From contig JAUSCK010000006.1 in NCBI GenBank assembly GCA_030651035.1, positions 1-37,245 on the forward strand: a DNA stretch of 37,245 nt, read 5' to 3'. Position 1 is the stretch's first letter; every line of letters begins with the position of its first letter. Position numbers and translations under genes: made by a program. The notes beneath the pieces are model-generated. The model was not told the DNA's origin, ran no database searches, and saw nothing but the letters and a program-made list of their open reading frames with translations. Origin of the DNA: Elusimicrobiota bacterium. Its GTDB lineage: Bacteria > Elusimicrobiota > Elusimicrobia > Elusimicrobiales > UBA9959. Positions 12,001-27,871 of the stretch are shown here, in pieces.

Positions 12001-15000
12001 GTGATCTCCGGCCAGGCCGTGCTGCCGCTGATAGGAGAAGCCGGCGGTACCGAAGGCCAGGTCCTTTACACCGAGCCCAAGGACTACTTTGTCACCTACG
12101 ATATAAACCCGCTGGCCAATGTCTCGGCGGCCGCCTATCTCGGCATGGCCATACGCTCCACCGACTACTTCTCCATAGACTACCCCAAGTTCATGAGCCC
12201 CGCCATTATAGGCGTCGCCACGCCGGGCAAGACCCTCTCGCTGATCGGCCGCGTGGCCGAATACGCCGACGCTGTCACGGTAAGGGCCACGGACACCGTC
12301 ACCGGAGGTACGCTGCAGCAGAAGGCGGTGGACCAGACCATAATGAACTTCACCATTGAGACCAGCGTGGCCGACGCGATCTGGCGCTGGGTGCTGGTTT
12401 ACGCCACCGGCACGGTGGTGAAGGAAGGCACTGCCACGGGCGACGTCTCGGCGGTCAAGGTCTGGTACGACAAGGACAACAACGGCTTCCTGGGCAGCGC
12501 GGACCCGCTGATCGGGACCGGCGTCTTCGGCAATACCATCTTCGGCCCGCTGGCTGCCAGGGTCGACATCTCCACGCAGCGCGTGGTCACCTCCGCTGAG
12601 GCCGACTCGCTCCAGCTGTCGCGGCGCTACTTCGTTACCTACGACATAAAGGCTTCCGCCATGCCCAACGACTCCCTGGGCAACCCGCGCTTCCTGGGCG
12701 CCTACCTTAAGCCGGAGTCCTTCCCAACTGGCAGCCCGGGCGCGGAGGACCCGTCAAAGAACTCCATTTCCCTGCCCAATTTCTTCTCGCAGGCGACCTC
12801 CAACCTGAGCTTTACTTCCAGGCTCCGGGAGCTCATCTCGGCGCCCAGCACCGTGACGGTGCGGACCGAGCCCATCTTCTCGCCCGGCGGCGGGGCGTCC
12901 GCCCTTTCCACGCGCCTGGCCCAGGACATAGCCGGCGGCCTTCCCGGAGGCACCACGGATTCCGCCTGGCTGGTAGTTTCCACCGCCGGCCTCCCCTCGT
13001 CCGGCTATATTATTGTGGACAACGAGATAGTGCGCTACGCCGGCACCGCTTTCGGAGCGCTTACTACGGTCATCAGGGGCTCCTTCAACACGCCGGTGGT
13101 GGCCCACAGCTCCGGCTCGGTCGTCGGGGGCATGGTTTCGCAGGGCCTGGACAATTATCCCTACATGAAGATGACGATGGCGACTTCCGGCTACGGCGTG
13201 CGCTGGCGCGGCTTCAAGCTGTCCCGCAAGCAGCCGGCCGGCATAAACGGCTACGACTCCGACGTGGGAACGATCAGGGTCTGGAAGGATAACGGCAACG
13301 GCTTATTCGACCGCGACCCTGTCAGCGGCAGGAACACCTCCGATATTGTCGTAGGCTACGGGAGCTTCGGCGTTAACGACCCGGTGGGCAAGGCCACCAT
13401 CCTGGTGGCCGACCCGGCCCTTAATAAACAGAACTACGTGGTGGTGAGCGCCACCCCCACCGTGATCTTCGTGTCCATGGACATAGACAAGGCCTCGAAG
13501 TTCTCGCACGCGCAGCTCAACCCGCAGAACGACGTGCTGGGCGTCGAGGTCGTGTCCGAGGCCAACTTCATCTTCGGCCCCGATAATTCAGGCCACGACG
13601 CGCAGTTCCTGACGCCGGCCGCGGGGCCCGTCTCCGTGCTGATGCCGACCCTCAATAATATCTCGCTCACCCCGGAGGATATCTCCCCGGTGTCGACGAC
13701 GCAGAACGACAAGAACGTCGGCCTGCTGTCCATGCGCATGCGCGTGGATAAGACCTCGGCGCTCCTTGAGGCGGTTAGGCTGAACCGCCGCGGCTCCGCC
13801 AACGATTCGGACATAGACCTGATAAAGGTCTGGAGGGACTCCAACGATAACTGCCTGCTGGATTCCGTGGACACGGCCACCAATACGGCCGGGCTGTACC
13901 CCAACCTTATGACCTACGGCAACGAGGCCTACTCCTCCGGCACCCTCAACGTGGTGCTGAAGACCCCTATCGTCGTCACCACCAATACGTCCTGCGCCTT
14001 CATAACCTACGATATGTCGCAGTTCGCCCTGGTGGGTTCCAGCGCGGCCCTTAATATAAACTCCATCGCGGACTTTACTGTCGGCATCCCCAATACGCTC
14101 TCTCTTTCGACCTCGCCGATCAATACCATGCCGATAATAGTGCTGGAGATCCCGTCCAATGTGACCCTGGGCGCCACCGACATGGCGGCCGAACTGGTGC
14201 AGGTCGGCGGCGTGGGCCAGGCCCAGGCCGGGGTGCCTATGGCCCGCTTCAACCTTGCCACGGAGGCCGGCAACGCGCGCTGGAGCGCCATAAAGCTGCA
14301 GCGCACCGGCGCCTCCAACGACCCCAACGCGCCCTTCGCCAGGAACACGGACGTCAAGTTCATCTCCATCGTCCAGGATTCCAATCAGAACGACCTGCTG
14401 GACGTGAACGACGTGAACGTCTCGGAAGCCAGGACCACGCTGGCGGTCCTTTTCGCCTCCACCGACACCGTGCCGTTCCAGCTGGTGGTGGAATCCACGG
14501 CGGGCTTCCCGTCCGCCGGCCGCCTCTACATCAGCGGCGCCGAGCTGGCCTCCTACTCCGGGACCGGTATCTCCGCCTCCGGGAAGCCGTACCTGACCGT
14601 CACTTCCCGGGGCGAGAAGCTGGGCGACCTGATGACCCCGCACATCAGCCACGCCGCCCTGGCCTCGGTGCGCAAGGTGGACGTGTTCGACCAGGAGAGC
14701 ACGCTTAACACCCAGCTGACGGTCTTCCTCTCCCAGGTGCAGACCCTGAGCCCGCTGCCGCAGACCTATTTCGGCGTGTTCGATATAGGCGAAATGGCCA
14801 CCAAAGCCAATAAGGTGGGCCTGATGATCCGCGACAAGTCCTGGCTGACCGTTAACGTCCCCCACGACATCTCGCCCAGCATCTACATAGGCGTGACCAA
14901 GGTCCTGCCCAAGGGCACCTATATAGACGTCTTCCCGTTCAGCTCCAGCCTGGTGCCTATACGGGCCATAACGCTCAGGGTGACCGGCACGGACGTGTCG

Positions 15001-17127
15001 CCCAGGTCGGTGGAGAAGAAAACCCGGAACGCGCCGATGATGTCCTTCAGCATGGCCACGCAGTCCGACTATGTCGCGATAGGCCAGGTGAACATCACGC
15101 AGGGCGGCACCATCAGCAGCTCCACGCTGAACTACGGCGACGGGGACATCGCCAGCGTTTCCCTCTGGAAGGACGACGGCGATGGGGCCTTCAGCCCTAT
15201 AACGGATTACCGCCTGGGCTATTCGGTGAATTCAGCCACCAACCCGTTCAAGAACGGCATCCAGGTCAATCTGATGTCAGGCAACCTGCCCTACCTGGTG
15301 GTCTCAACCAGCCCGGTCGTCATGCACGTGACCTGCGACATCAGCTCAGCCACGGACCTCTCCGGCGCCGACACGCTGGGCCACCTCGCCAGCCTGTCGC
15401 TGAAGTACTTTGTCGACCTGCGCGGCCTGGGCGGCCTGCCGCTGGCCGCCGGCCAGTATGCCGGGGACAATTACCCGATGGGCTCGAACCAGGTGCTTAT
15501 CGCCCCGGCCATCATCCCGCTGACGCCGGTCTTTACGCCCATAACGCTGGCCTCCAACGGCTACCCCGCCTACGCGCTTACCGACTCCAGCGGGAACGTG
15601 GTGCAGGGAGCCGGCAATATGCCGCTTGCCAACACGGGATCCCCGCCCTGGATACGCAATAACCCGCCCGCCGGCTGCAAGGCCGGGGAGCCGCTTATAG
15701 ACATAAACGGCGACGGGATCCCGGACAACTTCGATTTCTACGGGACCGGCAAGTGCACCAATATCAGCCTCAACAACTCCGGCCTGCCCTCTTTCGATAT
15801 AGACGGGGACAACCTGCTGGACTTCGAGAGCAACATGGACTATGTGCCGGACCGCATAATGGACGACGGCGCCGGCAAGCCGCTCTATTTCCTGGGAGAC
15901 ACCGTCAAGAACGCCCGGCTGCTGCTGGCCGTCTCGGACCTGGGCTCCGTGCCCTCCGTCTGGTCCGCCAAGACCACCGAGCTGCCGGCGATGTGGAACC
16001 CCGCTTCGGGACTCGTGGTGTCGTATGAACTGTCGCTGGGCAACAGCTTCGCGAACCCCACCGATATTAAGAACGCCTGGCAGCCTACGGGGGCCTCGCT
16101 GGCCGGCAGGGTGACCAACGTGGCGCTGTCGCCGGGCCACTTCACCCGCCTGCTCACCCGCATAGACGTCAATACCTCCTCCTTCACCGTGCAGTCGTCC
16201 GCCGGGTTCGCCGCCGAAGGCATAGTCTACGTGGGCAACGAGATAATGCTGGTAAATAAGCTGGACGCCACCTCGTTCAAGATAGTGGAGCGCGGCATAC
16301 AGGGCTCGTTCAGGGGGCCGCATACCGCCTGGGGTGAGACCGTTTCCGACCGCGGCTATATCATGTCGGTGCGCGGCATAATGGCGGACGGGAGCTATGT
16401 GCCCAGCGAAAACGGCGCGCCGATAATGATCTACCGCATAGACACCACCTACCCCACGACGCCGGGCGCCCCGGAGCCGCAGGTGGCCAAGGGCCAGGCT
16501 TCCGGGCAGGCTTACACGCTCAAATGGACCGCCGCCGAAGACCCCGAGTCGAACCTCATGTCCTACGAAGTACAGGAGCGCGAGGGCACCAGCCCGGTCT
16601 GGAAGACGGTGGCGGCCATCCCCGGCTTCAAGACGGGGGGGGCCATAAACAATATCTATACGATAGGCGACACCAGCCTGCCGGGTGAAACCCCCAGGCC
16701 GCTGGGCACTTACTACACCTACAGGGTGCGCAGCTGGAACTTCGCCGGGCTGCATTCCGAGTGGTCGGATGTTTCCACCCCGGCCGGCACCACCATCGGC
16801 ACGGAGCTGCTGAGCAAGGTTTCCAGCTATCCTAACCCCGTGGATCTGCGCAAGGGCGGCGTTGAGGGAAGGGTTGACATCACTTATACACTGAACGATA
16901 ACGCCGAGGTGACGATGACGATCTACGACCTCCTTGGCTACGTGGTGCGCGAATTCAAGTTCTCGAGCGGCTCGGAGGGCGGCAAGCTGGGCCCGAACCA
17001 TGTGCTCTGGAACGGTCAGAACGGCTTGGGCGGGATCGTGGGAAAAGGCGGCTATATAGTGCGCGTGAAGGCCTCCAGCCCCAAGGGCAGCAAGGTGATA
17101 ATGCGCAAGGTGGGCGTGATACACTAG
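1..17127 (+). CDS. Giant modular surface/secreted protein with FlgD-Ig/T9SS-like C-terminal domain (5' end outside window)
   Basis: The frame is open from base 1 with no stop until TAG at 17125-17127, so the gene begins upstream and 5708 residues are visible. The GTG at 49 is internal: the codons before it already form the 'YDxxxP' motif that opens each module of the first repeat family. Order of parts: Ig-like modules (about residues 10-1200), invasin/filamin-like modules (about 1210-3380), a region with seven calcium-loop-like motifs and interspersed RG-type modules (about 3400-5450), a DxNGDG/DxDGD stretch near residues 5233-5275, an FnIII-like domain (about 5490-5600), and a C-terminal domain with 'YPNP' and 'IYDLLG' motifs (about 5603-5708). 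Such C-terminal domains mark export by T9SS/PorV-type systems, and a PorV-like gene follows directly. I infer a very long extracellular adhesin or fibre. No catalytic domain was recognised. Confidence is high that it is one real gene, moderate for function. Confidence 0.93.
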   Translation, partial: STIVTQDFIYDTQIPTVTVTSPSGADAYLGTLGYISGTSLDTNGLGEVRETYLRVKNQSLGQYWSWGTNNYTESSPDAAWFVVSTTETVLYSRWFSTGTAPGGPAGGVNLVTGSTYEMSSRVLDKAGNYNLVYSTRSITYDITKPTGAVTGLGGVSPAAFHRQISPVNGSGFDGLSGGAAGLALLNAGGAQVRILDKGIGKWWDYLAGNFSISGGDSAWFNANSGTSEGWSYTYLALPAKLDTELVTGSTYCVQYRGRDKSAPVNEGPSSDGNDALFTQPKDSVTFIADRLEPVSRVTFPRDGAHIKALVTVTGTAADANSGIAAMGQIGVSMREVSPGAGWWDGFSTGTFSASSEVFYPLSIDQAAIFAGGAWSFDSPALQHGYTYRVRVRVTDNAKPGGNVESAISSVTFVYDITAPAAAIVYPIGLSDLRGNIKAPSLVVSGTAFESYGIKSASVSVMQVGPPNFYYDPATSLFNAPSAGGPKWITAAILGLGPNYTWTVTAPALTDNKNYDLQVIADDLADNVLVPPTATTIRYDITPPASGAISPADGSFIKQLAAITGTALDPNSNPSTVAGTQIKIKRSDDQYWNGSTWGAENWLAGVAGSPAWSKTAQLPPSDNLTGLENGMLYTVQTRSYDIAGNTQTPAGILTGNSFRFDISSPTAFISQPLNGSRKISLPLVSGTASDVVPGAFNVDFPKVRLYDIALNRFWLDGTGWVDDEFGGFPEIWNVALDSSSAGGSFNWRWTPPPLTDQQRDNELRTDVKVMDRAGNYSITSSTFSFDNIPPLSRIKYPPANGALYSSMTAITGTTSDVTSGVSNVKILIWYLSGPSTYYWHTLAPHWSIDENWVAIPGAFALKGATGSPWTYSPLDFYTPGEDFAWKEGTHDGGNGKTFYIVTKARDGTTNDETALSTRTFVFDNVPPVSAPWQPGIDTAYKGLPTVYGTSTDAVTTVQDAKICILSENETAGPRYFNGSNFVNMAETWLPIMNLFQSSWTYTFGLSPFTTGQHYVVKSSATDSIGNVQNIVGRSRFLFDQLEPQSVVDSPINTMVEEDAKSLLGSSLDAGFTSGIDGSGSGVYPEAAKPWHAGKVEVMVFRDADPYIASNGPLNTSDADSSGYFWNGSTWTASAGGEIWVPAQFYDTLGNWQYTGLVCDGPGALPGDDERAAHTCWVRGDSYAAWVRVTDNAGNLQTIVSLGPKFYIAAKAASFLVTVAANPMTAGSDINLTVEARDGANGAGSTARAYQGTVNFSVDGVPGGPEVMDNDDTMDNYNGLPKRYTFLPGDYGVKTFQMRLRKAAPRTLRVADLDNVSIYGSRNVTVNPTAADRVQVIADFDTAGQLPAPGRTEAVVEGSTGTPRSKPAGSSVPFLLQVTDLYWNLVVSSAASVYVTDTDPNNGNISADGYVNFVGSTTLYRTFVSASPSGWGVTAAEQGISNPRNPSSNVPIMPQAATRLLALFPGESRVQGKWDVQPLGKTGTISSLLAGATFQTRVYGVDEYYNTDTTAGFKVYASIPTDPYDINPSSNTLVSGATAFIFTPVVAATHTIKAESSALAGAASVYYTPDPVTVWWNRPVKLHLIAPGQGLLPGLPTYGANPSPGGKSGSPGALTAGATAEMAVYLVDEYYNVVKGTTPFMAVSSNTPNIQIAFLNDANIQGRGMHPDPYQRSLLAGTTTFSVIPVTRNLSPGLSVQVTGFGGIGAQFSTDTVSGIVVNPAPARKLLLLVPTEAVAEGASGGKTGTAGPLTAGATYTITVRSMDIYGNLANDGRSVKLKSNDIYAVHPPAQLLDGGIADFIMGFVPSAATSNLVIDAIDFDSIEPKLSTSTDSGIVVNPGTASRLIVLLPTQYLVPGKVVAPFGVEGNISTQTAGVGFNSLVYAADTRYNRVTAGVPDKTLHVTTNDPFAADLGNFSMTAGSATLNNVILRTGGPRALTVNDPGGLGTTISGGFLLVPFTPTKLRAMIPGESRVAGSTTTGRSGADDGERQAGFPFTVTVDITDSFWNLTPGASQQVSLVADDLSATVVPPSQVITGSATFTVTPRRAGNTVLTAAMGSPAVPGGPTLAPDTATTILVAPGIPTRLLLVLPGESFSQGSATGRSGQAAAWKAGTDLGVRVYVVDDYFNKVPGRPADVKVNTPTDAYVPAVSTASLNTTLGYTDLILFSMRRAATHYLTVSDFLSSGLAVDLPSSTFTVRAADPMGLQLLLPGETAVPGSGNYPSGGKTVGASSQTAGTGFFATVNLVDRYMNVSQDLSVGPTVYLVTSDIYDIDSDSVPLNYGTNQVPLNLVTKVNSASARAYPVNIADNYVCSGNFGGVCLADDAAARVSFKVYASTAVRLEVVLPGQTLVEGKCAVSPPCRNASLAWPGRSGPPAQHTIGLGPLFAGIFLTDMFFNKATEASAADKDTNPIAVMPEVGVTMPGDTKTAPPAVQTLSNGSAVFSLDARTSISSYTVLAATSAVSPAGTGLYQSGISTLTVNPGPAASMAYVVASTNVVAGTPFSALLYVKDAYGNICSTGPNVYRGTATFVVTDQAKNIQDPVLIALTTSYYASDYGVKNLVNWFKLHKAGPDAIGARDSLNSAISVTPLLSLYVSHGPPTIYRVTPNLDEEVPAGSLISRAVREITGQLADSFDNNIPQAGLPAYVMMGEVYGSTGSINYKSGVTWFSVGTSTLVYTDALGQVGVSTPLGYQVSSKSGDWARVWIGTTTVPLSRAAYDTYAAARQNLSGQLATTGGTPSKLVYVSSQPAAWVGIQEVLENGNGAFFTVERRDDFDNVTRQEETGVYLGIPSAQVAVHTGLGRTMGTVGNVVGDYGFRDTENSEFITALIIPINQTQASFRYHDRTASYSGVSPAANDFEDGRPGYWQLEARSGAMQPAIHQLRVNPSGITQVAFGNAPRSMTAGKLKDRFGIVQVFRPELRDTFANPSVATAAVRVALSTHTRQASLINDSFSFSISSAFSGAFPPVFASTISFLDIPLDAYSATFYYLDTAASSVYASSAAPIKPILGLSVPEMVNWAASTQSVTIVPDLTYRVNVSSAAGQSLTAGATSQNFMLSIEDHYGNPTPVAGGQEDAADAGIAFTLDSTSLGGTKFSAPDPGYFMSKPGSARMLLGQASTSFYLIDTLVSAPTHQLTVNTVLSKGWLPAISSYTVTPAPPDHVVFHTTPRRLVAGTTVQYYLGLATATVVSVALKDRYENNTTTNSPVTVRFSAVRNTTYGGIDPSVPVLSSNPSWKLLKTNPLDLDIPVGYSYANIYVWDTIVGSTTITADPSIPADSLTLPSISQDQYITPSSASYFTLHHTYTLGSPLRVRAPGYLTLRARDPYGNAATGDSINGKYYVGKIKMATNSQGSADLWAYPQNTTDYTFTTADRGEHQLLVQDTLVENLKVTVTDYNLPLIFGYTNDSGRGVPVYSNADVVLSGLVITPRDFAPEDPLPADKRAIGITKRSIYQGDGVIADIPSPVPMLRLAMRTAPAGAPPAFLKSVQIKSSGTLTFSDIIEVGMYADNPAPGKGSLGTFEGETELGGSPVDIFMSSGTYDPAMMGWNFEDLIAKVSTAAIVSNTSRNFFFTVRMSTVAATPRSFALVMDNPDFIVLDSTFVGVAYNNFPIVTATSPVSNQPATIKIGGSDIGAWWKPANSASGRYNYVQQGTERAAFLAIQAWTENFIGTIRSFRIIKTGTGAGSDLKSVRLFLDDGSGVFDQAIDKEVTDPANPPTFDPADPGTFVLPLYNPGVDGTVSIATRTYFVVYEFTADAVPSPFYDPPRPETLITHGARLENSAVSLLDGVVGAFSPIVSSTVPLYATADMVYLQDVNKAAPNDFSKPSFVTQNDVNKAVARLTLEIKDSAGSAVWRGLKLDRWVTGSENGNTAAWNKVTDVKRISLWYDSTRDGLLQSTSAVKDIEVVLIGAQTRTFPYDTLRLPLKSTDTVIRVTDIQKFFPSDSPFPRTPGRLIMNDGQSDPSLKEVIYYSTVDVVANTFGGLTRFAEGTTNSVVWGSGTVISGQAVLPLIGEAGGTEGQVLYTEPKDYFVTYDINPLANVSAAAYLGMAIRSTDYFSIDYPKFMSPAIIGVATPGKTLSLIGRVAEYADAVTVRATDTVTGGTLQQKAVDQTIMNFTIETSVADAIWRWVLVYATGTVVKEGTATGDVSAVKVWYDKDNNGFLGSADPLIGTGVFGNTIFGPLAARVDISTQRVVTSAEADSLQLSRRYFVTYDIKASAMPNDSLGNPRFLGAYLKPESFPTGSPGAEDPSKNSISLPNFFSQATSNLSFTSRLRELISAPSTVTVRTEPIFSPGGGASALSTRLAQDIAGGLPGGTTDSAWLVVSTAGLPSSGYIIVDNEIVRYAGTAFGALTTVIRGSFNTPVVAHSSGSVVGGMVSQGLDNYPYMKMTMATSGYGVRWRGFKLSRKQPAGINGYDSDVGTIRVWKDNGNGLFDRDPVSGRNTSDIVVGYGSFGVNDPVGKATILVADPALNKQNYVVVSATPTVIFVSMDIDKASKFSHAQLNPQNDVLGVEVVSEANFIFGPDNSGHDAQFLTPAAGPVSVLMPTLNNISLTPEDISPVSTTQNDKNVGLLSMRMRVDKTSALLEAVRLNRRGSANDSDIDLIKVWRDSNDNCLLDSVDTATNTAGLYPNLMTYGNEAYSSGTLNVVLKTPIVVTTNTSCAFITYDMSQFALVGSSAALNINSIADFTVGIPNTLSLSTSPINTMPIIVLEIPSNVTLGATDMAAELVQVGGVGQAQAGVPMARFNLATEAGNARWSAIKLQRTGASNDPNAPFARNTDVKFISIVQDSNQNDLLDVNDVNVSEARTTLAVLFASTDTVPFQLVVESTAGFPSAGRLYISGAELASYSGTGISASGKPYLTVTSRGEKLGDLMTPHISHAALASVRKVDVFDQESTLNTQLTVFLSQVQTLSPLPQTYFGVFDIGEMATKANKVGLMIRDKSWLTVNVPHDISPSIYIGVTKVLPKGTYIDVFPFSSSLVPIRAITLRVTGTDVSPRSVEKKTRNAPMMSFSMATQSDYVAIGQVNITQGGTISSSTLNYGDGDIASVSLWKDDGDGAFSPITDYRLGYSVNSATNPFKNGIQVNLMSGNLPYLVVSTSPVVMHVTCDISSATDLSGADTLGHLASLSLKYFVDLRGLGGLPLAAGQYAGDNYPMGSNQVLIAPAIIPLTPVFTPITLASNGYPAYALTDSSGNVVQGAGNMPLANTGSPPWIRNNPPAGCKAGEPLIDINGDGIPDNFDFYGTGKCTNISLNNSGLPSFDIDGDNLLDFESNMDYVPDRIMDDGAGKPLYFLGDTVKNARLLLAVSDLGSVPSVWSAKTTELPAMWNPASGLVVSYELSLGNSFANPTDIKNAWQPTGASLAGRVTNVALSPGHFTRLLTRIDVNTSSFTVQSSAGFAAEGIVYVGNEIMLVNKLDATSFKIVERGIQGSFRGPHTAWGETVSDRGYIMSVRGIMADGSYVPSENGAPIMIYRIDTTYPTTPGAPEPQVAKGQASGQAYTLKWTAAEDPESNLMSYEVQEREGTSPVWKTVAAIPGFKTGGAINNIYTIGDTSLPGETPRPLGTYYTYRVRSWNFAGLHSEWSDVSTPAGTTIGTELLSKVSSYPNPVDLRKGGVEGRVDITYTLNDNAEVTMTIYDLLGYVVREFKFSSGSEGGKLGPNHVLWNGQNGLGGIVGKGGYIVRVKASSPKGSKVIMRKVGVIH
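28..3630 (+). repeat. Tandem Ig-like modules in the giant protein (about nine copies)
   Basis: A motif of the form F-x-[YF]-D-x-x-x-P recurs at about nt 28, 417, 858, 1240, 1612, 1975, 2350, 2760 and 3108, a spacing of roughly 350-440 nt (115-147 residues). Most copies are followed by a 'V-x-G-T-[AST]-x-D' strand and often a W/NGS-x-W turn. This resembles bacterial Ig-like beta-sandwich modules of cell-surface proteins. Copies are well diverged, not recent duplications. Confidence 0.8.
3634..10170 (+). repeat. Invasin/filamin-like beta modules with 'LLLPGE' and 'TAG' motifs (about fifteen copies)
   Basis: Modules begin with a strand like R-L-x-x-x-L-P-G-E/Q at about nt 4366, 4732, 5161, 5518, 5878, 6241, 6604 and 7012. 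More divergent starts lie near 3634, 3988, 7453, 8215, 8668, 9097 and 9475. Each continues with a T-A-G-[AT] turn and a 'D-x-[YF]-x-N' motif (for example DEYYN, DDYFN, DRYMN, DHYGN). The spacing is about 360-440 nt. The pattern matches Big_1/invasin or filamin-type Ig domains that build long surface stalks. Confidence 0.75.
11068..15216 (+). repeat. Seven calcium-loop-like repeats (WxDxxxDGxxD type)
   Basis: A strand-loop motif with hydrophobic-x-W/F followed by an acidic loop (D-x-[DNST]-x-[DN]-G/D-x-[LF]) recurs near nt 11068, 11647, 12454, 13276, 13825, 14365 and 15157. Examples are VWYDKDNNGFL, VWKDNGNGLF and LWKDDGDGAF. This is the geometry of EF-hand/dockerin-like calcium sites. Between them lie four modules of a different type (about 11782-12012, 12952-13131, 14461-14685, 16171-16350) with a 'sAGFPsxGxxxxxxE' strand and usually a later 'RG' motif. 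Calcium binding is inferred from motif only. Confidence 0.65.
16805..17124 (+). other. C-terminal FlgD-Ig/T9SS type A-like sorting domain of the giant protein
   Basis: The last ~105 residues contain YPNP, a 'TYTLNDNAEVTMTIYDLLG' strand pair, 'VR' after it, a W-N/D-G-x-N-x-x-G turn and a final G-x-Y-I-V-R-V strand. This is the canonical pattern of FlgD_ig/T9SS type A C-terminal domains. In Bacteroidota the equivalent domain is recognised by PorV and the T9SS translocon. The neighbouring PorV-like gene supports the same role here. Confidence 0.8.
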
Positions 17128-17223: not shown

Positions 17224-17302
17224 ACGATAATAGCAAAGCCGGTTAACGTCGGCGGCGCAAAGTCAAGACCCGCTAAATATGCGGGGGTCAGACTACCGAA
17301 AA
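17224..17302 (+). promoter_or_regulatory. Cyclic-di-GMP-I (GEMM-I) riboswitch
   Basis: Hallmarks of the GEMM-I aptamer occur in order: AGCAAAGCC (17232-17240), GGCGCAAAGTC (17253-17263) and GACTACCGAA (17291-17300). These match the GGCAAACC, GACGCAAAGCC and GUUACCGA blocks of the Vibrio Vc2 class. P2 pairs GCCGGT with GTCGGC wobbles and closes with a UAAC tetraloop, a UMAC loop of GNRA-like fold in place of the usual GAAA. P3 pairs GACCCGC with GCGGGGGTC with two extra Gs. It lies between a strong promoter and the PorV-like gene, so it likely senses c-di-GMP to control that gene and perhaps the motor genes. Whether it acts as an ON or OFF switch cannot be told. Confidence 0.85.
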
Positions 17303-17350
17303 ACGATGAAACGCAATTATTGTATTGCTTTTGCCCCCTTGGCTATATTA

Positions 17351-17373
17351 CTGAAGCGTGTAATGCGCTTCAG
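17351..17373 (+). promoter_or_regulatory. Hairpin presenting the PorV-like start codon (possible riboswitch expression platform)
   Basis: CTGAAGCG (17351-17358) pairs perfectly with CGCTTCAG (17366-17373) around the 7-nt loop TGTAATG, which contains the preferred ATG (17363-17365). The weak GAAG ribosome site is in the 5' stem. No U-run follows, so translational control is likelier than termination. Confidence 0.5.
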
Positions 17374-18916
17374 CGTATCCATGGGGCTTTTTATTGCGTT
17401 CTCGGCGGTCCTGTGCATGGCCCAGAGCGGCGGCCAGCCCGGGCAGTTCATGAGCTACGGCGCCGGCGCCAGGAGCCTCGGGATGGGCGGGGCCTTCTTC
17501 GCGGTGGCCGACGACGCCTCGGCCTCCTACTGGAACCCCGCCGCCCTGACCCTGCTCGAGCGCAAGGAATTTTCCGCCATGCAGGCCTCGATGTTCGCCG
17601 ACACCACACTGAACTTCTTCACCTACGCGCACCCCACCACCACCAAGGGCACCTGGGCTGTCAGCATGACGCAGCTCAAGTCGGTGGGCTTCGAGAAGAT
17701 AGAGATCACCGCCAACCCCGGCGGCGACGAGATCATAGATATCAAAACCCTGGGAACCTTCGACAGCGTAGAGCGCGCGCTGGCTTTCTCCTGGGGCCGC
17801 GACGTTTCCGATAAACTCTCCTTCGGCATCATGGCCAAGAACATAACCCGCACGCTGGACACTTCGGCCGACTCCTTCAACGCCATAGACGTGGCCATGC
17901 TGCAGAAGTTCTCCAAGACCTACCGGGCCGCCATAGGCGTGCAGAACGTCTTCTCGATGGCCTCCGGCGACACCGAGGACAAGCTGCCGCTGATCCTGAA
18001 GTTAGGCCAGGCGCTGAGCCTCTTCAAGGGCAACCTGCTGTTCGGCTTCGACATCATGAAGCCCCAGACCGCCGACATGAACTGGCGCTTCGGCGGCGAG
18101 TACTGGCTGATGTACTGGGCCGCGCTCCGCTTCGGCGTGATGGGCGCCCCCGGCATACAGGAGGCCGATTTCGGCCTGGGCATCAAGTACAAGGACCTGG
18201 GCTTCGACGTGGCGCAGGGCGTGCACGCGCTGGGCACCACCACCCGCTTCTCGGTCACCATGCGCATGGGCCAGTCCAACAAGGGCAAGCACGACCGCGA
18301 GGTCCGCGAGATAGTCCGCCAGGCCCTGCAGTACTTCAAGGCCGGCTACTTCAGCCGCGCCATGGAGAAGCTCCGCGCGGCGATGGACGCCGACCCGGGC
18401 AACGCCGAAATACGCCGCATGGTCACCCGCCTGCAGGGCGCCATAGACTATGTGCCCACCGCCACCGGCAGCGAGGAAGTGCCCACCCTCACCCGCCGCG
18501 GCATCATCGGCTACGTGGACGGCAAGGATATACGCGCCTCGGTCAACGTGCTGCGCCACGCCTTCAACAAAGACGCCAAGAACGACCGCCTGCTCTCGCT
18601 GCTGAACCTGGTGGAGAGGGAGGCCGGCGTGAGCGAGCTCACCCGCAAGCCCGAAGGCCCCGAGATCTTCACCTACATAGACCAGCGGACCTACGACGCC
18701 CGCCAGTCTATCTACGACGGCAAGTACGACATGGCCATGAAGCGCGCCCAGGACATCCTGGACCTGGAGCCCAACAACGAGACCGCGCTGGAGATCATGG
18801 GCAGCGCCTTCTACCTTATGGACCAGAAGGAGAAGGCCAAAGTGATCTGGGAGAAGGTGATAGAGATCAACCCCGGTAACACCATGGTGAAGAATTTCCT
18901 GAAACAGGTCAAATAA
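17363..18916 (+). CDS. PorV/UPF0164-like outer-membrane barrel protein with C-terminal TPRs
   Basis: Starting at ATG 17363 gives a 517-residue protein with a normal signal peptide (hydrophobic core IAFSAVLCMA before QSGG). The in-frame ATGs at 17279 and 17306 would start in or next to the riboswitch and give a poor signal peptide. After the signal the sequence 'GARSLGMGGAFFAVADDASASYWNPAAL' type pattern (cited in pieces: ARSLGMGGAF, ADDASA, WNPAAL) is diagnostic of UPF0164/PorV-PorQ barrels related to FadL. About residues 25-310 form the barrel. Two TPR-like stretches follow (about 315-360 and 435-517), probably periplasmic. PorV carries T9SS substrates across the outer membrane; here the giant protein upstream is the obvious client. 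Regulation by c-di-GMP is suggested by the leader. The barrel-TPR fusion is unlike Bacteroidota PorV. Confidence 0.85.
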   Translation: MRFSVSMGLFIAFSAVLCMAQSGGQPGQFMSYGAGARSLGMGGAFFAVADDASASYWNPAALTLLERKEFSAMQASMFADTTLNFFTYAHPTTTKGTWAVSMTQLKSVGFEKIEITANPGGDEIIDIKTLGTFDSVERALAFSWGRDVSDKLSFGIMAKNITRTLDTSADSFNAIDVAMLQKFSKTYRAAIGVQNVFSMASGDTEDKLPLILKLGQALSLFKGNLLFGFDIMKPQTADMNWRFGGEYWLMYWAALRFGVMGAPGIQEADFGLGIKYKDLGFDVAQGVHALGTTTRFSVTMRMGQSNKGKHDREVREIVRQALQYFKAGYFSRAMEKLRAAMDADPGNAEIRRMVTRLQGAIDYVPTATGSEEVPTLTRRGIIGYVDGKDIRASVNVLRHAFNKDAKNDRLLSLLNLVEREAGVSELTRKPEGPEIFTYIDQRTYDARQSIYDGKYDMAMKRAQDILDLEPNNETALEIMGSAFYLMDQKEKAKVIWEKVIEINPGNTMVKNFLKQVK

Positions 18917-19057: not shown

Positions 19058-20968
19058 ATGAGGAAGTTTCTCTTTGCGGTCCTTCTTGCTTTGCCGGCTT
19101 TGCCTGCCGCGCAGACCGGCATGGATTCCTCCCTGATGGAGAAGCAGGATTCCATGCGCCGCGAGACGGAGACCAAGGTCAAGAAGGAGATCCTGGACCC
19201 GATACTGGGGGCGGACAGGTCCTTTGTTTTCGCCGACGTGGAACTGGAGGTGATCGCTAAAAAGGCGGAGCAGACCAAGGAAGGCATGGGCATAATACAG
19301 AAGTACAAGGAGAAGGGCGGCGGGCAGAACAACCCCGACACCGATTTCCTCCTGCCGGGGATCCCGAAGCCCAGGTCCGTGCTGGGGGGGGAGAACAAGC
19401 GCCCGGAGGCGGCCACGGGGCAGCAGGCCCAGCAGGCCAAGAACGTGCAGGAGATACGCTACGGCCTCGAGACCGAGATAACCCGCTTCCAGCTCACCAT
19501 CATACACGACGAAACGCTGCCGAAAGATTCCGTAAAACTGGCCCGCGAGCGCGTCGACGATTACCTGCTTCCTTATAAAATACGCAAGAAGGACGCGCCG
19601 ACCGTGGTTTTCAAGCCGACGAAATTCAAGACGGTCAACCCGCTGGACGACCTGAAGCGGCCGGGGGTTTACCTGCCGTTGCTTTATGCGCTGCTTTTCC
19701 TTATACTTCTATTGTTCCTGTTCGGCCCCCTCTGGGGCTTCTTCCGCAAGTACGTCAAGGCGCTGATGGCCAAGCCCGGCGCCGAGGTCAATATAGAGCA
19801 GAAGATGGAGGAGGGCGGCGGAGGAGGAGGGGAGGATGAAGGGAAGCAGGATACGGAAGGCCACCAGGCCATAGACATGACCTATGGCGAGGCGGGAAAG
19901 GAAGAAGAGGACGAGACTATGAAGAAATTTGAACCCTTCACTTACCTGACCGAGGAAAACCTCAAGCGCCTGATATACCTGTTCCTCATGCGCAAAGAGG
20001 ACCCCTGGGTTATCGCTATAGTGCTGAGCTATATGAAGCCGGACCTCGCCAGGCAGGTTCTTTCGATGCTTCCTATAGAGATGCAGTCCAAGGTTGCCCT
20101 TGAGGCCCTCACCGTGCGCCAGGCCACCCGCGCGCAGATAGAGGCCATAGACAAGGATATACGCGAAAGCGTGGATTTCGTGATGGGCGGCATAGAGCGG
20201 ATGATCAAGATGCTCGAGGAGGCCGACCCCGCCATAAAGAAGAACATCCTGGAGTATCTTAAAACCCAGAAGCCCGATATCTATGAAAAGATAAAAAGGG
20301 CCATCCTCATGTTCGAAGACCTCCCCACCTATTCCGACAAGGACCTGCAGACGATAATAAGGGGCGTGGGCAACGAAGACATCGCCAAGGCCCTCAGCAA
20401 GGCGGATCCGCAGATAGTGACCAAGTTCTTCTCCAACATGTCGCAGGGCGCCTCCAACGCCATTAAGGAAATAATGGAGTACTCCGCCGGGATCAGCGTT
20501 GCCCAGATAGACGAGGCGCAGACGAAGATCCTGGACGCAGTGAAGAAACTGGAGGCCGAGGGGAAGATCACCGCCCGCGAGGGCAGCTCGCAGGAGATCT
20601 GCATGATAGACGGCGGGGATATGTCCTCAGGCGACGACAGACGCCGCAAGTACGAAAGCATGGCCGGCGCCAAAACCGAAGCCACCGGGGGCCTCACTCC
20701 CGAACAGCTGGAGCAGGCCGGCCAGTACCTGGCCGCCGGGGTGGACATGTACAACCAGGGGAAGATACCGGAAAGCCTGCAGTACCTGGAATACGCCTCC
20801 TCGGTCAACGCCGGGGACGCGCAGACCTGGCAGTACCTCGGCGCGGCCTATTATTCCCAGCAGCGCGTGGACGACGCCGTGGCGGCTTACGAGAAGTATG
20901 CCGCCCTTTCAGGCGACCCGGCCGCCGCCGAATGGCTGGCCGGATTTAAGCAGTCGGTCGGAAAATAA
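19058..20968 (+). CDS. FliF-FliG-TPR fusion: minimal flagellar-type rotor protein
   Basis: This 636-residue protein joins parts normally split between the MS-ring and switch. Residues 1-19 are a signal peptide. Residues ~38-199 match the periplasmic FliF domain before the second TM: 'LDPILGADRSFVFADVELE' resembles FliF's LxPvlGxxxxxVxVxxELd, and the later 'YGLETEITRF' segment its companion. RBM1 and RBM2 (YscJ-type) are absent. A TM spans ~204-226. A Gly/Glu-rich linker leads to FliG middle and C domains (~291-498), with EDPW (314-317) where FliG has EHPQ, MGG near 376, MFEDL, and a torque helix at ~445-480. The FliG N domain, which normally binds FliF, is missing, as expected for a covalent fusion. 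Two TPRs end the protein (~546-636). Start ATG 19058 fits the signal peptide; no clear Shine-Dalgarno is seen. An inner-membrane rotor with cytoplasmic FliG facing MotA is inferred. Confidence 0.85.
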   Translation: MRKFLFAVLLALPALPAAQTGMDSSLMEKQDSMRRETETKVKKEILDPILGADRSFVFADVELEVIAKKAEQTKEGMGIIQKYKEKGGGQNNPDTDFLLPGIPKPRSVLGGENKRPEAATGQQAQQAKNVQEIRYGLETEITRFQLTIIHDETLPKDSVKLARERVDDYLLPYKIRKKDAPTVVFKPTKFKTVNPLDDLKRPGVYLPLLYALLFLILLLFLFGPLWGFFRKYVKALMAKPGAEVNIEQKMEEGGGGGGEDEGKQDTEGHQAIDMTYGEAGKEEEDETMKKFEPFTYLTEENLKRLIYLFLMRKEDPWVIAIVLSYMKPDLARQVLSMLPIEMQSKVALEALTVRQATRAQIEAIDKDIRESVDFVMGGIERMIKMLEEADPAIKKNILEYLKTQKPDIYEKIKRAILMFEDLPTYSDKDLQTIIRGVGNEDIAKALSKADPQIVTKFFSNMSQGASNAIKEIMEYSAGISVAQIDEAQTKILDAVKKLEAEGKITAREGSSQEICMIDGGDMSSGDDRRRKYESMAGAKTEATGGLTPEQLEQAGQYLAAGVDMYNQGKIPESLQYLEYASSVNAGDAQTWQYLGAAYYSQQRVDDAVAAYEKYAALSGDPAAAEWLAGFKQSVGK

Positions 20969-21153: not shown

Positions 21154-23682
21154 ATGGACGACAGGGATAAGAAACTTCCAAAACCCGGCATGCCCCCGCT
21201 GCCGCCCGGCATGCTCAAGCCCAATTTTCCGTCCGCCCCCGGCGGACCCGGCAGACCTTCTTTGCCGCCCATGCCCTTCGGCGCGCTGCCCGCCGCCGGC
21301 TCCGTGCACGGTCCCGCCCAGCCGCAGAAAGACGACTCCGCGCAGCTGCGGAAGGAAGCCGCTGAGGCCGAGGCGCGCCGGACGCAGGAGGATAAGGACA
21401 AGCTTGAGAAGAAGATCACGGACATGGAGAAGCTCCTGTCCCAGGAAAAGGAAAAAGCCCTGCTGGCTACCCTTAAAAACCAGCAGGACGAGGCACTTTC
21501 CTCCCGCGTGGAATCCTCGCTTAAGGACATACAGGAGAAGATGCGCCGCGACCGCCGCGACCATGAGGTCGAGGAGGAGAGGCTCGCTCTCAAGGGCAAG
21601 ATCAAAGAGATGGAAATGCGCCTGTCCCAGGAGCGCGAGACCTGGATGCAGACGCTCAAGAACCAGATGTCCGAGCGGGAAACCCAGGGCCGCGACGTGG
21701 AAGGCCATTTCATCAACCGCCTGCAGGAGATGGAGCGCCGCTGGCTGGACGAGAAGGCGCAGTGGCAGAAGGAAATTTCAAGCCGCGAGGAGACGATACG
21801 CTCCCTCAAGTCCGCGTCCGAGAAGCTGCGCGACCTGGAGGACGAATTCCGCAAGCTTTCGCTCGAGAAGTCCATGACGGAGCGCGAAGCTTCGAAGCTC
21901 CGCGACGAGGTGGCCCGCGCCGAGCGCGAGAAAGCCTCGATAGAATCCTACATAAAGATGATCCCGGAGAAAGAGCGGGAGATAGGCGAGCTCAGGTCGG
22001 AGAACACCGCGCTGCGCGGCCGGGAGGAGATGACAAGCGCCATGCAGCGCGGCCGCGAAGAGGCCATCCGTCTCGAGGCCATACATCGCGACGAAAGGAA
22101 TAATATCGAGCTGGAGAAATTCCAGAGGGAGATAGGCCGCCTGCAGTCCGAGATCGGTTCGCTCTCCGACCGCAAGAACGTAGAGAAGAACGAGGAGCTT
22201 AAGGCGGTTCAGGCCCGCTATGAGGAGCAGCTGCTGGAAAAGGACAAGGCCTTCGCCGATGTTTCCGGAGAGAAGATCCGGGCGATCTCCGAGCTGATGA
22301 AGATCAAAGGCTTCGTCTCGCGGGTGCAGGCTATCAACGCCGTGCTCGACAAGGAGCGCGGCCAGCTGAAGCTTGAAAAAATGCAGCTCGCGCAGAACAT
22401 GGCCGCCCAGCTCGAGGAGCTGAAGCGCCTGAAGGCCGAGAACGACGGTTTCAAAGCCGCCCACCAGTCGGAGCTCCAGATCCAGGCGGAAAATTTCAAG
22501 GCTGAAGTAAACAGGGTGAAGAACGGATACGCGGTGGAGCTCGCCCATAAGCACGCGGAAGAGATGGCTAAGATCCTCCGCGCCCACCAGGAAGAAACCT
22601 CAAGCGCGGCCGCCGCCCGCCAGGCAGAGGACGCAAATACGGCCGCCGCCCACCAGGCGGAGATAGCAAGCGCGGCCGCCACCCGGCAGGCGGAGATAGC
22701 AAGCGCGGCTACCGCCCACCAGGAAGAGACCGCGCGTATGGCCGCCGCCCACCAGGAAGAGACCGCGCGTATGGCCGCCGCCAACCAGCTGGAACTTGCA
22801 AGAACGGCTGCGGCGCGCCAGGCCGAAATGTCGAAGATGGCAGCCGATTATCAGGCCCTGCTGGCCAGGCTGACCGCCGAGCGGCAGTCGGAGTCCGACG
22901 CGAAAATTTCCCAGATGCGCATGCAGTACGAGGCCTCGGCCGAGGAAGAAAAAAACGCCCTCAGGCGCCAGCTGGAGGAATCTCACGCTTTGCAGCTGCA
23001 GGAAGTCAAGGCCGCCGCTGCAGCCGCGCAGGATTCCGTCCTTAAGCTGGATGTCGATAACCGCCGCCTTGCGGCCGATGCCGCTGATTTTGACCGTGCG
23101 CTGGCCGCCAAAACCAAGGAGTTCGAGGACCGTCTTGCCTGGGCCGAAGAAGACGCGCACCGCCAGGAGGCCGAAGCGCGCCGCCAGGAGGCCAGCCGGC
23201 AGGAAGCGCAGGCCGCCGCAGCCGCCGCTCAGAAAGAGGAGGCGGAGAAAGCTTTCCGTGAAGTCGTGGAGGAGCGCAAGTGTATAGCGGACGAATACGC
23301 GGCCATGCTGGAAAAGATCCCGCCGCTGGAGGCCCGGAACTCCGCCGCCGAGGCCGAGGCCGCAAAGCTGGCCGAGAATCTTCGCATCCAGACCGAGAAT
23401 CTCCGCCTTGAAAGCGAGAACCGCACCCGCTTTGAATCCGAACTGCTTTTCCTCAAGCAGAAGATCCAGCAGATGGAATTCCAGTCCCAGGAGAACGAGA
23501 GCCAGCGCGAGGCCGAGCGCGCAACTCTGGCAAACCTCCAGGCCGCCGCCACCGGGCAGCAGAGCCGCGACCTGGCGCGCATTCAAGAGCTTTCAGCCGA
23601 ACTGGAAAGCTACAAGACACTGGAGTCTTCCCTCGCCGGAAGGCTGAAGTGGGCGATAAAAGGGAAAAAGACGGAGGAGTAG
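21154..23682 (+). CDS. Proline-rich/coiled-coil cytoplasmic protein with hendecad repeats
   Basis: This 842-residue protein has no signal peptide or membrane segment. Residues 1-55 are rich in Pro and Gly (PPLPPG, PSLPPMP). From ~60 to the end the sequence is almost wholly charged coiled coil, rich in E, R, K, Q and A. Residues 466-586 form an 11-residue repeat array. No known family was recognised; SMC/AglZ/scaffold-like coils look similar at this level. It sits between the FliF-FliG fusion and flbD-motA-motB, all on one strand, so a structural or regulatory role with the motor is likely. It could act as a scaffold localising the motor, with the Pro-rich head as a docking segment for GYF- or SH3-like domains. 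That partner role is speculative. Confidence 0.8.
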   Translation: MDDRDKKLPKPGMPPLPPGMLKPNFPSAPGGPGRPSLPPMPFGALPAAGSVHGPAQPQKDDSAQLRKEAAEAEARRTQEDKDKLEKKITDMEKLLSQEKEKALLATLKNQQDEALSSRVESSLKDIQEKMRRDRRDHEVEEERLALKGKIKEMEMRLSQERETWMQTLKNQMSERETQGRDVEGHFINRLQEMERRWLDEKAQWQKEISSREETIRSLKSASEKLRDLEDEFRKLSLEKSMTEREASKLRDEVARAEREKASIESYIKMIPEKEREIGELRSENTALRGREEMTSAMQRGREEAIRLEAIHRDERNNIELEKFQREIGRLQSEIGSLSDRKNVEKNEELKAVQARYEEQLLEKDKAFADVSGEKIRAISELMKIKGFVSRVQAINAVLDKERGQLKLEKMQLAQNMAAQLEELKRLKAENDGFKAAHQSELQIQAENFKAEVNRVKNGYAVELAHKHAEEMAKILRAHQEETSSAAAARQAEDANTAAAHQAEIASAAATRQAEIASAATAHQEETARMAAAHQEETARMAAANQLELARTAAARQAEMSKMAADYQALLARLTAERQSESDAKISQMRMQYEASAEEEKNALRRQLEESHALQLQEVKAAAAAAQDSVLKLDVDNRRLAADAADFDRALAAKTKEFEDRLAWAEEDAHRQEAEARRQEASRQEAQAAAAAAQKEEAEKAFREVVEERKCIADEYAAMLEKIPPLEARNSAAEAEAAKLAENLRIQTENLRLESENRTRFESELLFLKQKIQQMEFQSQENESQREAERATLANLQAAATGQQSRDLARIQELSAELESYKTLESSLAGRLKWAIKGKKTEE
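22549..22911 (+). repeat. Eleven hendecad (33-nt) repeats in the coiled-coil gene
   Basis: Eleven consecutive 11-residue blocks follow the pattern A-[HRN]-Q-x-E-x-A-x-x-A-A (for example AHQEETARMAA, ARQAEMSKMAA). Two neighbouring blocks near 22714-22779 are an exact 33-bp tandem duplication, a sign of recent repeat expansion. Hendecads favour a straight or slightly right-handed coiled coil. Confidence 0.9.
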
Positions 23683-24098: not shown

Positions 24099-24881
24099 AT
24101 GGATATAGCTACATTCACCGGAATAATAGTCTTCCTGGGCTTCGTGTTCGGGGCCATCTACCTTGGCGAGGGCATGGCCGGCTTCAAGCCTTTCATAAAT
24201 ATGGAGGCCTTCCTGATCGTCATGGGCGGAACTTTCTGCGCCCTGCTCGTCAATTTCCCGCTGTCCTCCGTTATAGGCGTGACCAAGGTGCTCAAAAAGG
24301 TCCTTTCCTCCAAGGGCGAGGACACTTCCAAGCTGGTTACCACTTTCGTCGCCCTGTCCCAGAAGGCGAAAAAAGAGGGCTTCCTGGCGCTCGAGTCGGA
24401 CGCTAAAGCGATAGACAACGATTTCCTGAAGCGCGGCGTTCAGCTGGTCATAGACGGCGCCGACCACGAATTCATCCGCAACATGCTCGAGACCGAGATC
24501 GATTTCATAAGGGAGCGCCACAAGGCGGGCCGCGAGATCTTCAACGCCCTGGGCACCTACGCCCCGGCCTTCGGCATCATAGGCACGGTGCTGGGCATGA
24601 TCATGATGTTGTCTTCCATCGACGACGTGGCCCAGGTGCCGCGCCGCATGGCGCTGGCGCTGGCCGCCGCCTTCTACGGCCTGGGCTCAGGCTACTGGCT
24701 TTTCATGCCCATGTCCGGCAAGCTCAAGCACCGCTCCGAAGAGGAACTTTTTGTCAAAGAGATCATCATACGCGGCGTGCTGCTGCTGCAGAGCGGGGCC
24801 ACGCCCAGCGTCGTTGAGGCCAACCTGAAGGCCTACCTGGAGCCGGAAAAGCGCAAGACCGTGAAGAAAGAGGGCGCGTAG
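24099..24881 (+). CDS. motA: MotA/PomA-type flagellar motor stator protein
   Basis: A 260-residue four-helix inner-membrane protein of normal MotA length. TM segments lie at about 3-23, 34-53, 150-172 and 183-205. The cytoplasmic loop carries K91 and E99 in 'KKEGFLALE', aligned with E. coli R90 and E98, which contact FliG. The conserved prolines are present in APAFGIIG and in FMPMSGKL. It forms the ion-conducting stator with MotB, which follows 30 nt later. The ion used cannot be decided from sequence alone, although the KKEGFLALE loop is PomA-like. Located between flbD and motB, in the order known from flagellar operons. Confidence 0.93.
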   Translation: MDIATFTGIIVFLGFVFGAIYLGEGMAGFKPFINMEAFLIVMGGTFCALLVNFPLSSVIGVTKVLKKVLSSKGEDTSKLVTTFVALSQKAKKEGFLALESDAKAIDNDFLKRGVQLVIDGADHEFIRNMLETEIDFIRERHKAGREIFNALGTYAPAFGIIGTVLGMIMMLSSIDDVAQVPRRMALALAAAFYGLGSGYWLFMPMSGKLKHRSEEELFVKEIIIRGVLLLQSGATPSVVEANLKAYLEPEKRKTVKKEGA

Positions 24882-24911: not shown

Positions 24912-25703
24912 ATGCGGAGAAGAGTCAAGGGAATGATAGATGAGGACGACAAACGGGTAGCCCCGATGGGCGAGCCCGCGCCCCCGTGGATGGTCAACTA
25001 CGCCGACCTGATGACCGAGCTGGTCTGCTTCTTCGTCATCCTTTACGCCCTCAGCGCCGCCCTCAATAAGGACATGCAGAAGGCCCAGGCCGACATACAG
25101 GCGATGATAGAAGAGGGCAAGATGCAGGGGCAGGTCGCCATGGACAAAGAGGGCATGCGCATAACCATGGAGGAGCAGAGCCAGATGGCCTTCTTTGAAA
25201 GCGGGCGCGCCGAGCTCACCGACAATATGCGGGCCCAGCTGGACAAGATCGCCCCGGTGCTCCGCACCCTCTCCGAGAAGCACGATATAGTGGTGGAGGG
25301 CCACACCGACAATATGCCGATAGCCACCAAACAGTTCGCCTCGAACTGGGAGCTGTCCACCGCCCGCGCCACCAGCGTGGTGAAATCCATGCTGGCAAGC
25401 AATTTCACCCCGAAGCGGATGTCCGCGGTGGGCTACGGGGAATACCACCCGATCGTGGTTAACGACAGCGATGCGAACCGCAAGAAAAACCGGAGGGTGG
25501 TGTTCTTTATAAAGAACAACCCCTACCCGGACGCGCCCGCCGCCGGGCCGCCGGGGATAGCCGGGGCGGCCGTGTCCACCGCCGCGGTCACGCAGGCGCC
25601 CGACGGAGAAAATCCGGCGCCCGCCGCCGAGGCGGAAATTCCCGCGCCTGCCGGCGAAGGCGCCGCACCGGAAGGGGCAGCTCCCGCCGGAGGCGGGGAG
25701 TAA
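24912..25703 (+). CDS. motB: MotB-type stator protein with OmpA-like peptidoglycan-binding domain
   Basis: 263 residues. A short cytoplasmic head is followed by PPWMVNYADLMTE, with the ion-binding aspartate at D32, and a TM helix (~28-48). A plug-like amphipathic helix (~52-68) comes next. An OmpA/MotB domain (~90-212) carries VEGHTDN, NWELSTARA and GYGE..P motifs and N-R-K-x-N-R-R-V. The last ~48 residues are an Ala/Pro/Glu-rich tail not typical of MotB. AGGG near 24899 may be the ribosome site. It anchors the MotA stator to peptidoglycan. Confidence 0.93.
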   Translation: MRRRVKGMIDEDDKRVAPMGEPAPPWMVNYADLMTELVCFFVILYALSAALNKDMQKAQADIQAMIEEGKMQGQVAMDKEGMRITMEEQSQMAFFESGRAELTDNMRAQLDKIAPVLRTLSEKHDIVVEGHTDNMPIATKQFASNWELSTARATSVVKSMLASNFTPKRMSAVGYGEYHPIVVNDSDANRKKNRRVVFFIKNNPYPDAPAAGPPGIAGAAVSTAAVTQAPDGENPAPAAEAEIPAPAGEGAAPEGAAPAGGGE

Positions 25704-25752: not shown

Positions 25753-25842
25753 TCACACAAAGACACAAAGACACGAAGTAATAATAGGAAATGAGATCGG
25801 AAAAGTAGTGCCTTGGCTTTGTGGCTTAGCGGCTTTGTGTGA
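25753..25842. repeat. Intergenic inverted repeat with 8-nt-period arms
   Basis: The left arm (25753-25778) contains ACACAAAG/ACACAAAG/ACACGAAG and the right arm (25817-25842) CTTTGTGG/CTTAGCGG/CTTTGTGT. The outer 10 bp (TCACACAAAG/CTTTGTGTGA) pair perfectly. It fills the gap between motB and the lipoprotein gene and ends 8 nt before that gene's start. Confidence 0.85.
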
Positions 25843-25850
25843 CAAAGATT

Positions 25851-27841: not shown

Positions 27842-27854
27842 GGGATAAGGGCGG
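27811..27854. repeat. AGGGATA heptamer array at the end of mnmA
   Basis: Three exact AGGGATA units (27827-27847), with degenerate units on both sides, cover the last codons of mnmA and its TAA. The C-terminal residues of MnmA are therefore encoded by repeat, implying the array invaded or expanded at the gene end. Confidence 0.8.
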
Positions 27855-27871
27855 GATGAGAGAGATTTATT

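Follow-up and report, generated by a model that had tools for sequence, protein, structure and literature searches.

The standard explanation of flagellar torque builds on two pairs of charged residues, each with one partner in MotA and one in FliG. In Salmonella, the torque-making pair is said to be E98–R281. A study on the same organism reports that the R90–D289 contact positions the stator and that a gfp-motB fliG(D289K) strain is non-motile (PMC7564593). A role in the gliding motor of Bacteroidota has been assigned to GldLM (PMC8986121). The role of rotor genes in genomes that lack filaments has been raised as an open point (PMC12199754), and the gene described here bears on it.

We analysed positions 1 to 37,245 (forward strand) of contig JAUSCK010000006.1 from an Elusimicrobiota bacterium of the family UBA9959 (GCA_030651035.1; 96.4 percent complete, 320 contigs); this whole stretch of 37,245 nucleotides is referred to as the window. 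It encodes a protein that is not a flagellar FliG. It carries the C-terminal half of FliF at its N-terminus and TPRs at its end. A full-text literature search, which covers few subscription journals, returned no recognisable paper on a natural FliF–FliG fusion.

A FliF–FliG fusion beside MotA and MotB genes

The fusion gene and its surroundings have the following features:

49..17127, + strand: giant surface-type protein of 5692 aa with Ig-like domains and a FlgD_ig/T9SS-tail-like C-terminus
17279..18916, + strand: PorV/PorQ-family outer-membrane protein with C-terminal TPR (NF033709, 114 bits, cut-off 90; synteny)
19058..20968, + strand: FliF(C-half)–FliG fusion protein of 636 aa with C-terminal TPR (open reading frame, Pfam, hhalign, models)
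19058..19114, + strand: probable signal peptide, residues 1-19 (hydrophobic N-terminus, by eye)
19115..19630, + strand: periplasmic FliF RBM3/collar-like domain, residues 20-191 (hhalign, fold match, PF08345 in relatives)
19661..19741, + strand: transmembrane helix, residues ~202-228, at the position of FliF TM2 (sequence, predicted helix)
19985..20170, + strand: FliG_M, residues 310-371 (Pfam, 40.5 bits, cut-off 25)
20255..20572, + strand: FliG_C, residues 400-505 (Pfam, 97.5 bits, cut-off 23.3; structure match)
21154..23682, + strand: coiled-coil-like protein of 842 aa, conserved neighbour (composition by eye; synteny)
24099..24881, + strand: MotA-family subunit of the stator, with K91 at the R90 site and E99 at the E98 site (MotA_ExbB, alignment)
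24912..25703, + strand: MotB-family subunit with OmpA-type peptidoglycan-binding domain (MotB_plug and OmpA domains)
25839..26600, + strand: probable lipoprotein of 253 aa, conserved neighbour (lipobox-like LAGC by eye; synteny)

Both FliG_M and FliG_C of the fusion protein exceed their Pfam cut-offs, and the protein as a whole scores 117.1 bits against the NCBI equivalog for FliG (TIGR00207), under the cut-off of 226.7. The EHPQ motif of FliG_M, a FliM contact, reads EDPW in the window protein and E[DE]PW in 38 of 39 orthologs.

The N-half of the fusion is the C-terminal half of FliF. When 23 N-halves from across the phylum (alignment A4) were compared by hhalign with six FliF sequences, they matched FliF residues 224-470 with a probability of 96.4 and an E-value of 1.1e-9. 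In a fold search with a model of the N-half (mean pLDDT 69), the best 15 rows were all FliF chains (Z 10.7-12.3), FliF 8Z5V_A superposing at 2.1 Å over 101 residues; unrelated OsmC/Ohr chains reached up to Z 9.8. With an E-value limit of 10, PF08345 matched 8 of the 23 phylum N-halves, the best at 2.2e-7, and a Pfam search with the window protein alone found no PF08345 match. The family-only profile (A1) gave a probability of 27.9 and E 6e-4 against FliF in hhalign, Pfam matches for 3 of 24 N-halves (best E 0.011) and no FliF match in the PDB; the PDB sequence search with A4 placed SpoIIIAG on top at E 0.012 and FliF only at E >1. Fold searches with the full-length AlphaFold model (pTM 0.28) returned FliG, TPR and other helical chains, with no FliF row for the N-half.

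The own genome holds three more paralogs of the FliF–FliG type, on contigs C29 (L041:8190-10034), C31 (L042:10710-12164) and C111 (L043:9772-11202), whose torque-helix sites differ again. In the C29 paralog, a single chain contains FliG_M, FliG_C and a PF08345 match of 38.3 bits (cut-off 23.8), and the YscJ_FliF_C similarity of the C31 and C111 FliG_C genes stays under the Pfam cut-off. The C111 paralog adjoins MotA and two MotB genes.

The order PorV-like/TPR, fusion, coiled coil, MotA, MotB and lipoprotein recurs in the window's family and is partly kept in other families of the phylum, as seen in 30 loci chosen for display; at L130, L134 and L136 no MotA lies inside the fetched stretch. The PorV/PorQ-family TPR gene adjoins the fusion in many loci across the phylum, and genes of the tRNA methyltransferase type and for D-Ala-D-Ala ligase (26768..28954 in the window) adjoin the cluster in many relatives. 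The coiled-coil-like protein has no Pfam match. In the window, the gene for the giant protein stands directly upstream of the motor cluster.

Searches of the own genome for FliMN_C and for FlhA were each negative (0/1), and the controls matched in both cases. Across the phylum, FliM was found in 1 of 294 genomes versus 110 of 294 for FliG_C (E<=1e-15). The single FliM (PF02154) match came from genome G269 and not from the genomes of L054 and L143, two loci with flagellar-type fliF-fliG-fliH-fliI operons, which occur in few Elusimicrobiota. Genome G009 has separate FliF, FliG, FliH-like and FliI-type genes plus a fusion.

Register and conservation of the torque-helix sites

The torque-helix region of FliG_C comprises these features of the window:

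20396..20398, + strand: S447, the K264 site (MAFFT and profile HMM alignments)
20444..20482, + strand: torque helix, modelled at residues 463-475 (predicted secondary structure, structural register)
20447..20449, + strand: G464, the R281 site (profile HMM; ortholog counts)
20468..20473, + strand: E471-I472, the D288-D289 sites (profile HMM; ortholog counts)
20495..20497, + strand: S480, the R297 site (profile HMM; ortholog counts)

An earlier note, made from the sequence by eye, had assigned K264, R281, D289 and R297 of E. coli FliG to S447, G464, I472 and S480, with E471 at the D288 site as the sole kept charge. Sequence and structure agree with this assignment, and the E. coli numbering used there is correct at all five sites against MG1655 fliG. 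The window FliG_C thus retains one of the five charges of the E. coli set. In a phmmer search of the PDB, residues 292-516 aligned to Thermotoga maritima FliG (1lkv, 3ajc), with FliG_C free of gaps. Identical columns came from a MAFFT alignment that included the relatives fetched first and from a profile HMM covering every fetched locus. The profile alignment of FliG_C with flagellar and fusion sequences, which the note had proposed as a check, left the register unchanged. AlphaFold was run on a 24-sequence alignment (A2), with pLDDT of ~65 to 86 in FliG_C (blocks of ten); the predicted domain superposed on 1QC7_B with 89 of 89 residues at 0.9 Å and on the MotAB-bound FliG 8UCS_H with 88 of 88 residues at 1.2 Å. 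The gap-free sequence register together with the structure superposition identifies S447, G464, E471, I472 and S480 as the five sites. No charge-restoring register shift was found by phmmer, MAFFT, profile HMM or structure superposition.

The pattern was followed through 39 unique FliG_C sequences from same-family genomes and from a scan of named genome contigs, identical sequences being entered once. The scan yielded 37 loci, mostly Elusimicrobia/Elusimicrobiota, with peptide patterns chosen outside the torque helix; since the loci are the best-scoring ones of each search, strong matches are over-represented in the samples. Some form of FliG_C match occurs in 54 of 59 same-family genomes. In all 39 orthologs the R281 site is G and the D288 site is E; the D289 site is I in 38 and V in one, and the R297 site holds S (19), T (18) or N (2) and never R. 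The K264 site varies freely (A 20, S 6, Y 6, H 4, K 2, N 1), K being kept in two family members (L012 and L013), and the column shows no constraint in the window's lineage. For comparison, 13 flagellar FliGs of other phyla were read, one from E. coli and twelve from plasmid records; K264, R281, D288, D289 and R297 are kept in 13, 12, 11, 13 and 11 of them, respectively.

Adding 58 fusion-type sequences from other Elusimicrobiota families brings the total to 97, after the paralogs L002, L060, L156, L161 and L170 and the flagellar-operon FliGs L014, L054 and L099 were dropped. An acid stands at the D288 site in 97 of 97, and R281 and R297 are kept in none. K264 and D289 are each kept in 26 of 56 fusion-type sequences of other families, a tally that counts as paralogs L148 and L172, which stand as fusions among the 58. 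L003 and L004 appear in the MAFFT alignment and are absent from the HMM-based table, L144 and L158 are short frames, and for L156-L195, whose N-half was partly fetched, the status as fusion is based on frame length and tree. A tree was built by quick search from 118 rows and 200 columns, with the sites masked in 109 rows; several of its branches are long. In it, a single branch separates the 97 fusion rows from the remainder, and the window's family (39 rows) is recovered as a group with SH-aLRT 100. Mapped on this tree, the fusions show two changes at the K264 site, three at D289 and none at R281, D288 or R297. The earlier description of the charges as lost is therefore apt for K264 and D289 in the window's lineage only: no member of the fusion clade has R281 or R297, and the group may have been without them from the start.

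A pseudogene or frame error is ruled out by the same pattern in 39 unique orthologs. Because the examined close relatives share the trait, it probably points to remodelling of the drive surface and not to its decay. Residues 456-475 are the most conserved 20-mer of FliG_C (mean identity 0.85 vs 0.76 for the domain in the 24-row alignment) and rank 59th of the 197 20-mers across residues 290-505. Projected on an ideal helix, G464, A468, E471, I472 and Y475 of the family line the stripe centred on E. coli positions 281, 288 and 289. This facing stripe consists of small, hydrophobic and aromatic residues and a single acid. The aromatic residue at 475 is found in 94 of 97 fusions vs 1 of 13 flagellar FliGs; T. 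maritima FliG likewise has Y at this position.

A proposed reduced contact with MotA and its alternatives

On the stator side, all 34 partner MotAs from the window's family have K at the R90 site, and the 8 partner MotAs from elsewhere have K or R. At the E98 site, 26 of the 34 family members have E and 8 have Q, and five of the other eight have Q, two E and one D; Q or D thus stands there in 14 of 42 partner MotAs, and Q also occurs in a MotA near a flagellar-type operon (L143). The earlier statement that the MotA counterparts remain charged accordingly holds for the window (K91, E99) and for the R90 site in general (K or R in 42 of 42) and is not general at the E98 site, which is often Q in relatives. 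Since 26 of the 34 family MotAs retain the E98 acid despite the missing R281, the covariation of this site with the FliG sites is weak, too weak to use. The MotB plug/TM segment has D32 within YADLMT.

We lean, with some reserve, towards a reading in which MotAB drives a non-flagellar machine that has the fusion as its rotor subunit and a stator contact reduced to one pair. A single chain holds the C-half of FliF (periplasmic ring domain, collar and second membrane helix), FliG_M/FliG_C and the TPR tail. With half of FliF and FliG in one chain, MS-ring and rotor ring would be a single part, and FliM/FliN would be dispensed with. MotA would probably still grip the torque helix of FliG_C, K91 at the R90 site pairing with E471 at the D288 site, the sole retained acid. 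The pair of MotA E98 and FliG R281 is missing, D289 is replaced by isoleucine, and K264 is free to vary. An always kept acid at D288 and base at R90, an absent R281 and an often relaxed E98 fit such a one-pair contact. Against the reading stand the stator-positioning role of R90–D289 in Salmonella, given the isoleucine at the D289 site here, the weak covariation of E98, the modest rank of 456-475 over residues 290-505 and the low pTM of the full-length model. That E471 alone would suffice as contact, with I at the D289 site, is a guess. Register, conservation, FliF homology, gene cluster and the lack of a FliM/FliN match in the genome were observed directly; from them we infer the assembly of a ring, its contact with MotA, rotation and the coupling to PorV-like and adhesin-like partners.

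It is unlikely that the drive contact has moved to another surface, formed by K456, K470 and the family's K448 with E474, leaving the classical stripe for packing only. The earlier note had raised K448, K456 and K470 as possible torque charges, and their conservation speaks for it: K456 is basic in 96 of 97 fusion-type sequences vs 3 of 13 flagellar ones, K470 in 95 of 97 vs 5 of 13, and K448 in 34 of 39 window-family sequences vs 1 of the 58 other fusions. On an ideal helix, however, ~137 degrees separate K470 from the middle of the stripe that classically faces the stator, and K470 hence need not face MotA; the stripe residues G464, E471 and Y475 are conserved about as well as the lysines, and all 42 partner MotAs have the classical basic residue.

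We give rather little weight to a FliG-like part that forms a scaffold ring without torque, MotAB acting elsewhere, for example on the coiled coil. Four of the five charge sites are empty, a FliM/FliN match is absent, and the TPR tail and the coiled-coil neighbour offer alternative partners. Yet the torque-helix stretch is where FliG_C is most conserved, and the fusion is clustered with MotA and MotB across families.

Ordinary divergence, in which the charges are partly redundant in flagella too and their absence has no mechanistic meaning, appears quite improbable. Flagellar FliGs do lack single sites: this is the case for those carried on plasmids in Priestia, Arthrobacter and S. meliloti (pSymB), and in two flagellar-type FliGs of Elusimicrobiota the R281 site is E and the R297 site S. 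Work based on Vibrio describes the stator charges as redundant (PMC6079164). Drift, however, does not produce columns in which G, E and I hold in 38 or 39 of the 39 orthologs, and only the K264 column looks drift-like. A misalignment whose correction would restore the charges is practically out of the question, given that four methods, including superposition on the MotAB-bound FliG, are gap-free.

A lineage that keeps one pair and has G and I fixed elsewhere is a natural experiment on the electrostatics needed for torque. A rotor without FliM/FliN, joined to a membrane ring and standing outside the flagellum, would bear on the evolution of rotors and stators.

Comparison with gliding, stator and flagellar systems

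A 1826-aa SprA/Sov-like frame elsewhere in the own genome (L198:1212-6692, G000, contig C52) matches with E 1.6e-32 and 111.8 bits, under the curated cut-off of 200, and possibly represents a type IX translocon in Elusimicrobiota. The SprA_N search of the own genome gave 0 matches with silent controls, and the GldL search gave 0 matches in a search that had no working control. We infer a link of the cluster to type IX-like secretion or gliding. Tentatively, and with clearly less conviction than for the rotor itself, a flagellum-free MotAB rotary motor, with the fusion ring and a single charge pair, could power a PorV/SprA-like adhesin machine in place of GldLM; such a machine would then move or export giant adhesins. 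The Bacteroidota GldLM/T9SS likewise places a proton motor beside a PorV-like protein and a large surface protein, and the SprA-like frame may be a further parallel, whereas the motor here consists of MotAB and a FliG rotor.

With MotAB/PomAB stators, the window's subunits share the MotA_ExbB, MotB_plug and OmpA domains, D32, K91 and E99; unlike them, they have a non-flagellar partner rotor, and their relatives often carry Q at the E98 site. The fusion resembles flagellar FliG in FliG_M/FliG_C, in a superposition at 0.9-1.2 Å and in the acid at D288, and differs in its FliF C-half and TPR, in four of five missing charges, in EDPW for EHPQ and in a genome without a FliM/FliN match. With the FliF MS-ring, it has in common the profile match to FliF 224-470, a fold similarity of Z ~12 and a helix at the place of TM2, but it is without the N-terminal half of FliF and its chain runs on into FliG. 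Laboratory FliF–FliG fusions of Salmonella and Vibrio are single chains as well (PMC6079021, PMC11481574). They join the full proteins, whereas the fusion described here is natural, contains half of FliF and occurs phylum-wide.
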